This document shows, piece by piece, positions 28,829 to 33,302 of a stretch of DNA of 64,000 bases; position 1 is the first letter of the stretch; each line of letters begins with the position of its first letter. This DNA is from an uncultured Actinomycetes bacterium. Lineage in GTDB: Bacteria > Actinomycetota > Acidimicrobiia > Acidimicrobiales > RAAP-2. A program made the translations under genes and the position numbers. The stretch covers positions 1 to 64,000 of the forward strand of contig CAIKBU010000081.1 in assembly GCA_903825765.1 (NCBI GenBank), read 5' to 3'. The notes below the pieces were generated by a model. It had not been told where the DNA came from, did not search any database, and saw nothing but the letters and a program-made list of their open reading frames with translations.

Positions 28829-29566
28829 CTATGCCTTCATTGACTGGCTAGCCAGCCACTGAGAAAACTGCTGCTTCGACACGACGTTGCCGGTCGTGAC
28901 CATGAATGCGTGGTTAAGACCACAGAACTGCGTACAACGAACATCGAAGGTGCCCAACGCCGTGGGCGTGGTGTGGATCTCGGTTATGGTCCCGACGTTC
29001 GCGTCAACCTGGACACCCATGTTGGCAATCCAGAAGCCGTGTGTCACGTCAAGTGCCTTGATGTGAAACACCACCGTCCGGCCCTCCGGTAAGACCAACG
29101 TGGGCGACTGCACGTTCGTACCAGGGTACGAGAACGTCCACAGCCACTGCTGACCAGTAACGTCCACGACAAGTGGGTTACGACCAATACCACCGTTGTC
29201 CACCGAAAGGGCTCCGAGGCCCCAAATCAAGAGGAACACCGTCAAGGCCGTCGATGCCAGCACCCACGAGGTCACTGCGAGCGGGTGCTCACGGGTTTGG
29301 CTCGCCGCGGGAGCCGGTACGGAGTCGCCACGGTGCACCCAGTGTCGAAGCGCGTGCAGACACACGGCGTAGACCCCTGCGGCCACCGGTGCGGCGGCCA
29401 CGGAGAAGACCACGATGGTCAGAATCGACAGATGCATGTTGTCGCTCATAGACCGGGGCATCAGGTGTGCAGGGCCATAGACCCCGATTACCACGCCCAG
29501 CACGGTCAAGAGGAATATCGAGATGTACATCCCGGTGAGCTTTTCTTTCTTTGGTGTCATTGCCAT
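28829..29566 (-). CDS. ctaC: Cytochrome c oxidase subunit II
   Basis: CuA-bearing subunit that takes electrons from cytochrome c or a cupredoxin. 245 residues. Membrane segments near 12-32, 45-71 and 97-120, then the cupredoxin domain. CuA ligands: H176 (DVTHGFWI), C211, C215, H219, M222. The loop reads CTQFCGLNH: the Glu common in A-type CSELCG is Gln213, as in Thermus ba3. The aromatic GQQWLWTFSYP electron-entry patch is present. No lipobox. ATG with AAGGAG upstream; no fused cytochrome c domain. Confidence 0.95.
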   Translation of the reverse strand: MAMTPKKEKLTGMYISIFLLTVLGVVIGVYGPAHLMPRSMSDNMHLSILTIVVFSVAAAPVAAGVYAVCLHALRHWVHRGDSVPAPAASQTREHPLAVTSWVLASTALTVFLLIWGLGALSVDNGGIGRNPLVVDVTGQQWLWTFSYPGTNVQSPTLVLPEGRTVVFHIKALDVTHGFWIANMGVQVDANVGTITEIHTTPTALGTFDVRCTQFCGLNHAFMVTTGNVVSKQQFSQWLASQSMKA

Positions 29567-29574
29567 GATGCTCC

Positions 29575-30282
29575 TTACTTAACCGTCAACGTGCCGGACA
29601 TGTAGCCCCACGACGACATTGCGTATCCGAACTGACCTTCGCGCGATCCACCGCACGGAAATTCGCAGTTCCACTGGTAAACGCCAGGCGTGCCGACCTT
29701 GAACGAGAACGTGACGACGACCGGCGAACCGTACGTTGCGTCACCTACGGTCTCCGAATTCGTCGACGGGCTCGCCGGCAGCGGCACCGAGACAAACAAA
29801 GGCGATCCGCTGCCGGGAACGCCCCGCAACGTGAAGGTGTGTCCAATGCTCGTCGGGTCGACACTCGACAGGGTCTGGACTGGGGTCGAGTCGCCCTTCT
29901 CAGTCGGAATCATGTACTGAGCAGTGCCACCCGTGGTGCCCCACACCCGACCAAAGAAGGCCTCATTATTCAGCGGTCCACCACTGTCGTACTGGCGGAT
30001 TGTCATTGTGATGACCGATCCAGCCTTCGCAACCAGGTTGTCATTCGAGTACGAGACCCAGTCTGGGTGGGGCCCGCCACCCTTGCCGTGCATGCCCTCG
30101 AGTGAATCGGGGAACGAATCAATCGTCAATGAGCAGTGTCCCGCCTCCCCCACAATGGGTTGGCATATCTTGGCGGACTGATGCGGAGTGGCGCTCGCCA
30201 AAGCGACGCCGGCCAGTGCCAATGCACCCCCTCCGAGCACTACCGATGCGAGTGCTGTGGCAAATGCCTTCGAGCGTTCCAT
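29575..30282 (-). CDS. Secreted cupredoxin-like protein of the cox operon
   Basis: 235 residues, not assigned to a named family. Signal peptide at 1-31 (ALALAGVALASA). The C-terminal half looks like a cupredoxin: H148 in SIGHTFTL, then PGVYQWNCEFPC with C206-x3-C210, the CuA spacing, and Met222 and Met228 nearby. The His expected four residues after the second Cys in CuA is absent (R214). It is first in the cox operon, 8 nt before ctaC, with GGGGGA before its ATG. It could deliver electrons or copper to CtaC (inference). Confidence 0.65.
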   Translation of the reverse strand: MERSKAFATALASVVLGGGALALAGVALASATPHQSAKICQPIVGEAGHCSLTIDSFPDSLEGMHGKGGGPHPDWVSYSNDNLVAKAGSVITMTIRQYDSGGPLNNEAFFGRVWGTTGGTAQYMIPTEKGDSTPVQTLSSVDPTSIGHTFTLRGVPGSGSPLFVSVPLPASPSTNSETVGDATYGSPVVVTFSFKVGTPGVYQWNCEFPCGGSREGQFGYAMSSWGYMSGTLTVK

Positions 30283-30388: not shown

Positions 30389-30754
30389 ATGTTAGTGGAT
30401 AGCATTAAGTCAGTGAAACCATCATCGTCATCAACATTTCGCATCCATTGTGGGTTGTTCCTGGCCGAGATTCTTTGTGTCCCCGCCTTCCTTTTTGAAC
30501 TCAGTCGGGCGCAGAGCGGAAACACGCTTTCGTGGGCCTACGTGTTCGAATGGCCGATTCTTGGCGGTTACGCCGTTTATATGTGGGCCAAAATGCTCAA
30601 AGAAGAACGAGGTGACGACGCGCGGTCGAGGAGCCGTCGAGCTCACATTGACGTCGACGCGACCCCCGATCCCGAACTTGACGCGTGGAACGCGTACCTG
30701 GCCAAAGTGCACGGCACTGAGGTTCAGGGCGACGTCGAAAACCGCGAAGACTGA
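30389..30754 (+). CDS. Small membrane protein, unknown
   Basis: 121 residues. Two hydrophobic stretches (about 20-40 and 47-66, with the aromatic FEWPILGGYAVYMWAKML), then a charged cytoplasmic tail rich in Arg, Asp and Glu. No known domain recognised. ATG preceded by AAGGTGA at 12 nt. It is transcribed divergently from the cox operon, and its 3' end overlaps ctaG on the opposite strand by 31 nt. A role near the oxidase is suggested only by position. Confidence 0.6.
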   Translation: MLVDSIKSVKPSSSSTFRIHCGLFLAEILCVPAFLFELSRAQSGNTLSWAYVFEWPILGGYAVYMWAKMLKEERGDDARSRSRRAHIDVDATPDPELDAWNAYLAKVHGTEVQGDVENRED

Positions 30755-31566
30755 CGCTCTAGTGCGGCGAGCAACGAGCCGTCGCGCGCCATAACTCGCC
30801 GCACAATGAGCACGAGACACGGAACGGCCCAGAAGTCACCACACACCCACAAAATTGCTGCGGACAGTTGCTGTTGTTGAAAGGCCACCGCTGGGCTAGG
30901 GCCCATGCCAGGCATCGCGTCCATGGCACTCGTGGGCGCCATGGTGTACCAGGCCGCCTTGGTGAAGATTGACATCGCCATCGCCATCACCAGCATTTCG
31001 AACATTGTCACCGCAATCATGACCAGTTGCCAGCGCAGTCGCGCCTTTGGCCGCTTCGGCCACGCCGGAATGATGAAATGAAAGAAAAAGAGTCCCGACG
31101 CCAGAAACGCCGGCTCCATTAACCAGTCCATCGCCCAACGCCGAGCCATCACGAAATTGAAAATCGATGGCACGTGGGCGCACACCATGACGCCATTCAT
31201 CACTACCGCGGCCACCAAGGGATGACAAAGCCAAGCGGGCGTGCGCCAGTGTCGCAAGTAGTACCGACGCATCACGCTTCGACGCAACGAGACCGGTACA
31301 ACCCAAACTAAGGAGCGTGCGGTCGAGCCACCAATAAGGCCCATTGGTACGAGGAACATGACAATCACGTGGGACATCATGTGATCAGGCAAACTGCTCA
31401 TCCCACGGGCCGCGAAGGGCGACGCGGTCGCGAACCACAGGAGGAGCCACGACCCTACGGAAAGCGACCACTGTGCGTAGGTTCGACGGCGACGCTGGGG
31501 GCGGCGAATCAGTCCCAGCGTTGACACAATGCCACCTGCAATGGCAACGATGCCCAGTGGGGTCAC
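30724..31566 (-). CDS. ctaG: CtaG-type cytochrome oxidase assembly protein
   Basis: 280 residues, about seven membrane segments, of the Bacillus caa3-type CtaG family (unrelated to the Cox11 CtaG of proteobacteria). Conserved-looking His and Met: DHMMSHVIVMFLVP, then HVPSIFNFVM and PGMG..., which fit copper handling. The GTG at 31566 overlaps the stop of the SCO fusion gene (GTGA), so both are made together. Overlaps the convergent small membrane gene at its end. Confidence 0.85.
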   Translation of the reverse strand: MTPLGIVAIAGGIVSTLGLIRRPQRRRRTYAQWSLSVGSWLLLWFATASPFAARGMSSLPDHMMSHVIVMFLVPMGLIGGSTARSLVWVVPVSLRRSVMRRYYLRHWRTPAWLCHPLVAAVVMNGVMVCAHVPSIFNFVMARRWAMDWLMEPAFLASGLFFFHFIIPAWPKRPKARLRWQLVMIAVTMFEMLVMAMAMSIFTKAAWYTMAPTSAMDAMPGMGPSPAVAFQQQQLSAAILWVCGDFWAVPCLVLIVRRVMARDGSLLAALERQSSRFSTSP

Positions 31567-33302
31567 GAACGCAGTCCCGTGGCGTGGAGCAGCTGCAGAA
31601 TCTCGGCTTCATCGGACGTCTGCGTGTAGCGAGCGCCACTCAGGGGATCGTCGGGCATAATCCAGCGCAGTCGACCGTGCGGGTCAATGACAAAGAGATA
31701 GTCAGCGTGGAGGCTCATGACGCCAGTTTTTGCTGGAAGCACGGTCATGCCGTAGGAATTCCACACGGCTTTCAGCTTGGGGAGTGGGCCGGTGGCGAAC
31801 GTAAAGTGCGGCACCGAACTCAATTGATGAGCCGCGACGAAATGACGCACATCACTGAGCGATTCGTGGAGCGGGTTCGCCGCCACCACCACGATGTCGA
31901 GCGGGGCGTTTGCCGGTAGTAATTGACGCATGTGCTTGAGCTGAGCGGCCATGAGGGGGCAATCGGTGTAGCACACTGGATCCAGGAAGGTCAAGATTGT
32001 GTAGCGCCCGCGTTGATGACCGAACGTGAATGGGGCACCGTGTTGGTCGGTCAACGTGAATCCTGGGGCAACATTGTTCACCGATGACGCCAGGCCATTC
32101 GAGGCAACAAAGAACGTCGTTTCGGGTGGTTGCAGCGTTGCCACGGCCATGGTCACCACGGAATAGGCAACCATCGCCAGGGCGAAGGAAGCAGCGACGC
32201 CTCCCGTGAGCGAGCGCAATTCGCGAGGAAGTCGTCGCGGTAACGATGGGTGCGACGTCCACTTCGGGGCGGCGGCGAAGGTCAGTGCGCCGAGGGGAAT
32301 GAGCGAATTCAGGTCAGTGGCGAGTCCACCGAAAATCGCGGCGTCCTGAGCCACGACCCAAAAAAGCACGCTGAACACGATTGTTGACCACACCGGCCAG
32401 TTCAAGTCTCGCTGCGGTGCGAGCCACAGCCCCACTGCCGTGACGAGTAACCACAGAATGACGATGAGGTTTGAACCGCCACCGAGCGTCCCCGCGACGG
32501 TGCCACCGTGCAAGGCGAGCGACGCAATCCAGTGAGGTTGCGCCACTTGGGTCATGTTCTGCGTCATCTGGGTAAGCGCGTTGCCATTACCACCGTGCCA
32601 GAACCCATCCGAGGGCAGACACTGTCGCAAGGCACCAAGTGCCAGGATCACACTCACCGTACGAAGCGTGACCCGAGAAAATGCGGCCGACCAGACCCGT
32701 GGCGAAACGGCGAGCCATCCACCGGCGATGACGTAAAACAATGTCGCACCCGGCCATCCAAACAGAATCGACCCAGAGGATGAAAAGAGGCCACCCGCGC
32801 CGTTGCCGAACAGCCAAATCGTGGCTGCCCATGCCGCCGAAACCGCGGCAATCCAGCGTCCCAGAACGTTGTTGGAGAGGAGGAGGCAGAGGCCAATACC
32901 CACCTGTATCCACGCCGCCCCCACCGCGAATACCAAAGGGTGCTCATTCCACATGGTGATACCCGATTGCATCATGGCGTGGAGCCACAGCGGCGCCCCG
33001 TCCATCGCGGGAGCCACCACGTCATTACCGAGTCCCAGTGGCATGGCTGGTTGAAACTGCAGGACGCCATCAATCAGCCAAATGAGCCCAAAGGCGTAGC
33101 GCAAGTAACTGCGGCTTCGCGGTTCGAAGACGCCGGTCTGCGACAAATTAAAGGTGCGCAACCGACCGGAGAGCAATGACGCCAGCAACAGCAGCATGCC
33201 GAGCGCCACAAAAAGAGCGACGGACCGAACAAACAGCTGGTGATGAAACAGCGCCACGACAATCTCATTCGTTAGAACGATATGACCGTGATTCATCACC
33301 AT
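31563..33302 (-). CDS. Polytopic membrane protein fused to SCO1/SenC copper chaperone
   Basis: 579 residues. Residues 1 to about 390 are a membrane region of eight or so helices, with a His-containing N-terminus (NHGH, FHHQ) and a DoxX-like stretch (about 66-160). From about 410 a full SCO domain follows: VAPGFTLTDQHGAPFTF, the copper ligands C444 and C448 in CYTDC, and H532 in SLHADYLFVID. SCO proteins load CuA of subunit II. The frame is continuous, so the fusion is genuine in this sequence. Downstream of nusB by 8 nt, coupled to ctaG. Confidence 0.85.
   Translation of the reverse strand: MVMNHGHIVLTNEIVVALFHHQLFVRSVALFVALGMLLLLASLLSGRLRTFNLSQTGVFEPRSRSYLRYAFGLIWLIDGVLQFQPAMPLGLGNDVVAPAMDGAPLWLHAMMQSGITMWNEHPLVFAVGAAWIQVGIGLCLLLSNNVLGRWIAAVSAAWAATIWLFGNGAGGLFSSSGSILFGWPGATLFYVIAGGWLAVSPRVWSAAFSRVTLRTVSVILALGALRQCLPSDGFWHGGNGNALTQMTQNMTQVAQPHWIASLALHGGTVAGTLGGGSNLIVILWLLVTAVGLWLAPQRDLNWPVWSTIVFSVLFWVVAQDAAIFGGLATDLNSLIPLGALTFAAAPKWTSHPSLPRRLPRELRSLTGGVAASFALAMVAYSVVTMAVATLQPPETTFFVASNGLASSVNNVAPGFTLTDQHGAPFTFGHQRGRYTILTFLDPVCYTDCPLMAAQLKHMRQLLPANAPLDIVVVAANPLHESLSDVRHFVAAHQLSSVPHFTFATGPLPKLKAVWNSYGMTVLPAKTGVMSLHADYLFVIDPHGRLRWIMPDDPLSGARYTQTSDEAEILQLLHATGLRS

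Follow-up and report, generated by a model that had tools for sequence, protein, structure and literature searches.

An unnamed cupredoxin family, probably a distant relative of the CuA domain, is tied to a second oxidase of actinobacteria

A cytochrome c oxidase operon in a 64,000-nucleotide stretch of actinobacterial DNA (the window, a term used here for that whole stretch) is headed by a gene for a cupredoxin-like protein. We call it CUP, for cupredoxin-like oxidase partner. CUP represents a real, widespread, and unnamed cupredoxin family that is tied to a second actinobacterial oxidase. Its fold, homology, invariant residues, constant gene order, and covariation with COX2 were established computationally. 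On balance, we lean slightly toward CUP being a membrane-anchored, CuA-related cupredoxin that acts as an electron transfer partner or subunit of the second aa3-type oxidase. Two aa3-type oxidases are present in many actinobacteria, among them the very abundant freshwater acI group, and only one heme-c protein was detected in the genomes checked. If the reading is true, a conserved cupredoxin dedicated to the second oxidase, with CuA ligands that have changed, would directly answer how that oxidase is supplied with electrons, and CUP would show that a CuA-like site can exchange a His for a Met in nature.

Table 1. CUP and neighboring genes in the window
Feature	Coordinates	Strand	Remarks
CUP (cupredoxin-like oxidase partner)	29575..30282	-	235 aa; helix 2-29; domain about 46-235; putative ligands H148, C206, C210, M222, M228
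CUP metal-loop region C206-EFP-C210-GGSREGQFGYA-M222-SSWGY-M228-SG	29596..29667	-	codons 206-229
Cytochrome c oxidase subunit II (COX2), CuA motif complete CTQFCGLNHAFM	28829..29566	-	PF00116 5.1e-13
Cytochrome c oxidase subunit I (COX1), 620 aa	26956..28818	-	PF00115 7e-119
Putative subunit III (COX3), 253 aa	26198..26959	-	third conserved gene, after cox1
ORF121, small divergent membrane protein, conserved, function unassigned	30389..30754	+	frequent neighbor of CUP loci
CtaG, caa3-type assembly factor	30724..31566	-	PF09678 2.4e-27
Membrane protein fused to SCO1/SenC domain	31563..33302	-	PF02630 9.9e-10, residues 414-544

Read on the minus strand, the CUP open reading frame begins at 30282 and ends at 29575, and its ATG start is preceded by AGGGGG. 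The operon runs in the order CUP-COX2-COX1-COX3, with gaps of 8 bp and 10 bp followed by a 4-bp overlap, and upstream of CUP lie the divergent ORF121, then ctaG, and then the gene for the membrane/SCO fusion. A promoter scan gave no sigma-70-like site. COX2 of the window has the full CuA set, C211-TQF-C215-GLN-H219-AF-M222, and matched the NCBIfam CoxB model at 3.1e-32, falling under that model's cut-off. The window COX1 contains the motifs HPEVY, HHMF, and HFHY; it is also extended at the N terminus by about 100 residues and falls below the NCBI equivalog cut-offs. No Pfam or NCBIfam match was obtained with the putative subunit III, and no Pfam match with ORF121, which bears a WAYVFEWP motif, overlaps the end of ctaG, and is divergently transcribed. 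The SCO fusion is 579 aa long, and its multi-helix N terminus appears DoxX-like by reading.

Residues 2 to 29 of CUP form a hydrophobic N-terminal helix, consistent with export or membrane anchoring. An earlier note on this DNA had described the protein as secreted, which the helix fits, and as the first gene of a cox operon, which proved true in the window and at every related locus that could be checked. At the loci with sufficient DNA, the next same-strand genes after CUP were cox2 (71 of 71), cox1 (68 of 68), and cox3 (61 of 61), a perfect adjacency that holds for the closest homologues, on which the count was made. ORF121 was near CUP in 45 of 49 loci with sufficient DNA. In a mirror-tree comparison, in which the distances were not tree corrected, CUP correlated with COX2 at an r of 0.91 and with COX1 at 0.90, against 0.94 for COX2 with COX1. 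A diverged form, subtype B, with the motif CFVPCG, is present in other genera. Its position on the chromosome is unchanged, following NusB and the SCO fusion, yet the cox set that it heads is a different one, with a COX1 of about 40% identity. One locus (L055:311-8364) holds two full CUP-COX2-COX1-COX3 operons in tandem.

Genome searches returned orthologues with 56 to 67% identity within the same genus, and a scan of GTDB with a 15-sequence alignment as the query yielded 447 related stretches, the best 80 of which (79 loci) were retained for locus analysis. The retained loci came from Acidimicrobiaceae, acI/Planktophila, Nocardioides, Intrasporangium, Pseudonocardiales, Frankiales, and Streptosporangiales records. 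CUP was found in 52 of 395 sampled genomes of the class and, with a stricter cut-off, in 14 of 397 genomes of a phylum-wide sample. A plasmid search with the Intrasporangium homologue found none. Membership in a named family was considered and rejected: CUP matched no family in Pfam or NCBIfam, the 64 aligned family members matched no cupredoxin model in either collection, and comparison with PDB sequences (phmmer etc.) gave spurious or nonsignificant matches only. We found no description of the CUP family in the open-access literature, which is weak evidence for absence; cupredoxins in the cox clusters of iron oxidizers are already known (PMC8239418, PMC4059628).

The fold of CUP was predicted with AF2 using 64 family members, giving a pLDDT of 89.8 and a pTM of 0.85 (89.4 and 0.88 for the trimmed domain). 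The top Foldseek matches in the PDB were all copper cupredoxins or cupredoxin-domain enzymes, including the CuA domain of nitrous oxide reductase (N2OR), NirK, and ba3 subunit II, and the three best proteins for the trimmed domain were auracyanin (7.4e-5), AcoP (1.0e-4), and rusticyanin (1.2e-4). TM-scores for single-domain matches were low, 0.31 to 0.54, owing to insertions and a helical loop. Model confidence is lowest within the loop that follows C206 (block pLDDT of 62 to 83). H148 lies in strand 146-154 of the model, C206 just past strand 200-205, and M228 just ahead of strand 229-234, so that these three residues are predicted to occupy the classical cupredoxin ligand places. CUP thus shows the features of the cupredoxin superfamily, a Greek-key beta sandwich with a His before one strand and Cys and Met around the last loop. 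A short-loop paralogue passes the PF13473 Cupredoxin_1 model (4.2e-9) and matches PDB cupredoxins, nitrosocyanin (0.0037), and N2OR CuA; its subtype is joined to that of the window protein by hhalign at 4.9e-34.

Seven residues, H148, C206, P209, C210, M222, M228, and G230, were invariant in all 129 homologues, which span three subtypes. The family pattern is H...C-x3-C-x(4 or 10-12)-M-x5-M: 10 to 12 residues separate C210 from the first Met, a distance reduced to 4 in the short type, and the spacing between the two Met is always five residues. Chance resemblance was rejected on the invariance of the pentad H148/C206/C210/M222/M228 in these homologues. When the 129-member all-subtype profile was compared with COX2 by hhalign, the E value was 1.7e-5 (probability 79), and the tandem subtype alone gave 1.3e-7 (probability 94), against 0.034 to 0.039 for reversed profiles and 0.027 to 0.9 for 20 column shuffles. 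The oxidase-linked subtype alone gave no match to COX2 (E value of 0.14). Since only profiles that include the tandem subtype reach COX2, the link is a remote one, and CUP is probably a distant relative of the CuA domain of oxidase subunit II. In the alignment, H148, C206, C210, and M228 fall on the His, Cys, Cys, and Met of the COX2 CuA site, and the CuA loop His lies opposite the variable CUP residue 225. CUP therefore has the C-x3-C, upstream His, and C-terminal Met of CuA sites, and it does not have the loop His of C-x3-C-x3-H-x2-M, the second-copper ligand. A disulfide alone would not need an invariant His and two Met, which makes M222 the leading candidate for a substitute for the missing loop His. 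The N-terminal Cys40 and Cys50 were rejected as part of a metal site, as they are mostly present or absent together (62 of 79 members have none and 14 have two), and they likely form a local disulfide.

Part of this had been anticipated. The earlier note had placed H148 and C206-x3-C210 where the translated frame, which also has P209, indeed has them, and had remarked on the missing CuA loop His; the window protein contains none downstream of C210. M222 and M228, likewise invariant, were absent from that first reading. Its description of the spacing as CuA-like is supported by the profile comparison as remote CuA homology. It had also proposed a cupredoxin fold and named any other predicted fold beforehand as a refutation; AF2 and Foldseek agree on a cupredoxin, and no other fold was obtained. 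Its remark that it knew of no named family for the protein was borne out by Pfam and NCBIfam, neither of which gave a match.

The genome of the window (96% complete) contains two COX1 genes. The other cox locus, an ordinary aa3 type near succinate dehydrogenase-like genes, had no CUP within the fetched stretch. The only heme-c protein detected in this genome was QcrC, a diheme protein with two CxxCH motifs, so the second oxidase has no obvious soluble cytochrome c donor. A complete acI chromosome (carrying locus L078) likewise has two COX1 genes, the ordinary one a few kilobases from the single diheme protein and the other adjoining CUP. A second, split cytochrome b occurs besides QcrB at L144:9174-10867 (contig C4 of genome G000) and L149:7002-8566, consisting of a short protein of the cytochrome b N-terminal type and a 316- to 317-aa partner; no CUP-family cupredoxin was found within the fetched stretch.

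That CUP binds copper, transfers electrons, and associates physically with the oxidase is inferred, as is its donor. CUP would face outward, anchored in the membrane, and would most likely bind copper through His148, Cys206, Cys210, Met222, and Met228. The ligand set would derive from CuA, with the loop His lost and a Met in the longer loop possibly substituting for it. CUP would be coexpressed with the second aa3-type oxidase, probably attached to it, and would hand electrons to the CuA of subunit II, replacing the missing soluble cytochrome c or working in line with it. The likeliest electron donor to CUP would be QcrC of the bcc complex. It counts against this reading that, to our knowledge, the His-Cys2-Met2 ligand set matches no characterized electron transfer cupredoxin.

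Other members of the family occur in arrays. At 12 fetched loci (L123-L131 and L133-L135), mostly two to four divergent CUP paralogues stand in tandem, with a 4Fe-4S (Fer4) protein and an NrfD-type membrane protein alongside in 11 of the 12, and often with a histidine kinase and a response regulator. No cox2 was detected within the fetched stretches. The arrays may possibly represent a quinol-to-cupredoxin module, with no catalytic subunit detected. A single open frame at L131:4502-6160 encodes a DoxX-like membrane part and a CUP-family cupredoxin, a counterpart to the window's SCO fusion; the two parts may be genuinely fused or may be joined by the annotation alone. A wider proposal, which we put forward tentatively, is that a CuA-derived His1Cys2Met2 site on a dedicated subunit replaces cytochrome c for the second aa3-type oxidase and that the tandem members serve a 4Fe-4S/NrfD quinol module. 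If this is true, the CUP family would be a general, undescribed cupredoxin electron carrier system of Actinomycetota.

The main rival is that CUP is a copper chaperone, its Cu(I)-binding His-Cys2-Met2 site loading the CuA of subunit II together with the neighboring SCO domain, outside the electron path. The neighborhood is rich in copper assembly genes, with the SCO1/SenC fusion and CtaG at the same locus, CUP always adjoins cox2, and soft Cys and Met ligands suit Cu(I). Moreover, SCO and PCuAC proteins cooperate in CuA assembly, and the fold of PCuAC is cupredoxin-like (PMC9145763). However, CUP lacks the PCuAC motif and family match, SCO was near CUP in just 19 of 31 loci with sufficient DNA, and no CUP lies near the ordinary CuA oxidase that this genome also encodes. 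The array paralogues lie beside FeS/NrfD redox proteins with no COX2 within the fetched stretches, which, taken across the family, speaks for electron transfer rather than copper loading, though subtypes may differ in function. We regard a chaperone role as unlikely.

A structural or protective accessory subunit, in which the Cys pair forms only a disulfide and the His and Met serve packing, strikes us as quite improbable. Constant gene order and covariation with COX2 would suit any stable subunit, and Cys residues four apart could form a disulfide in an oxidizing compartment, but H148, M222, and M228 are invariant with both Cys across the 129 sequences, including paralogues with another loop length and no oxidase nearby, and H148, C206, C210, and M228 align with CuA ligands. 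The disulfide-only reading of the Cys pair is unlikely because one His and two Met are co-conserved with it. That CUP has an unrelated envelope function and is a neighbor through operon history alone is very hard to credit: nothing specific spoke for it, the unbroken adjacency to cox2 extends across Acidimicrobiia, acI, Nocardioides, Intrasporangium, Pseudonocardiales, and Streptosporangiales records, and a distinct subtype is kept at the same locus beside a different cox set.

The conserved, putatively metal-binding residues of CUP are unlike those of every named cupredoxin with which we compared them. SCO proteins also use Cx3C plus His, and CUP resembles both them and PCuAC in its neighborhood and soft ligands. 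SCO1/SenC proteins, however, have a thioredoxin fold with CxxxCP plus His, whereas CUP has CEFPCG in a cupredoxin model and no PF02630 match. PCuAC proteins carry the motif H(M)X10MX21HXM, whereas CUP has no HXM and no match to the family. Nitrosocyanin and Cupredoxin_1 were matched by a divergent paralogue, whereas the window CUP matches neither, and the curated Pfam and NCBIfam models for sulfocyanin and other cupredoxin families gave no match to CUP. The type 1 copper proteins auracyanin and rusticyanin, small soluble or anchored electron carriers, are among its best fold matches but use two His, one Cys, and one Met, compared to one fully invariant His, two Cys, and two Met in CUP. The CuA domains of COX2 and nitrous oxide reductase share with it the cupredoxin fold, the core His, Cx3C, and a C-terminal Met; in contrast, CUP lacks the loop His, separates its second Cys from its first Met by 4 or 10 to 12 residues, and has an invariant second Met.

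No AcoP chain was among the PDB sequence matches of CUP. AcoP is a membrane-anchored cupredoxin that is cotranscribed and copurifies with an aa3 oxidase (PMC4059628, PMC5982212), and CUP, too, is a cupredoxin with a predicted N-terminal membrane helix encoded with aa3 oxidase genes. The AcoP ligands are H85 and C159-x6-H166-x4-M171 (PMC4059628), whereas the corresponding CUP residues are H148, C206-x3-C210, and M222-x5-M228. By analogy, AcoP appears to be the closest functional counterpart of CUP, yet CUP is not AcoP, because the ligands and sequence differ.
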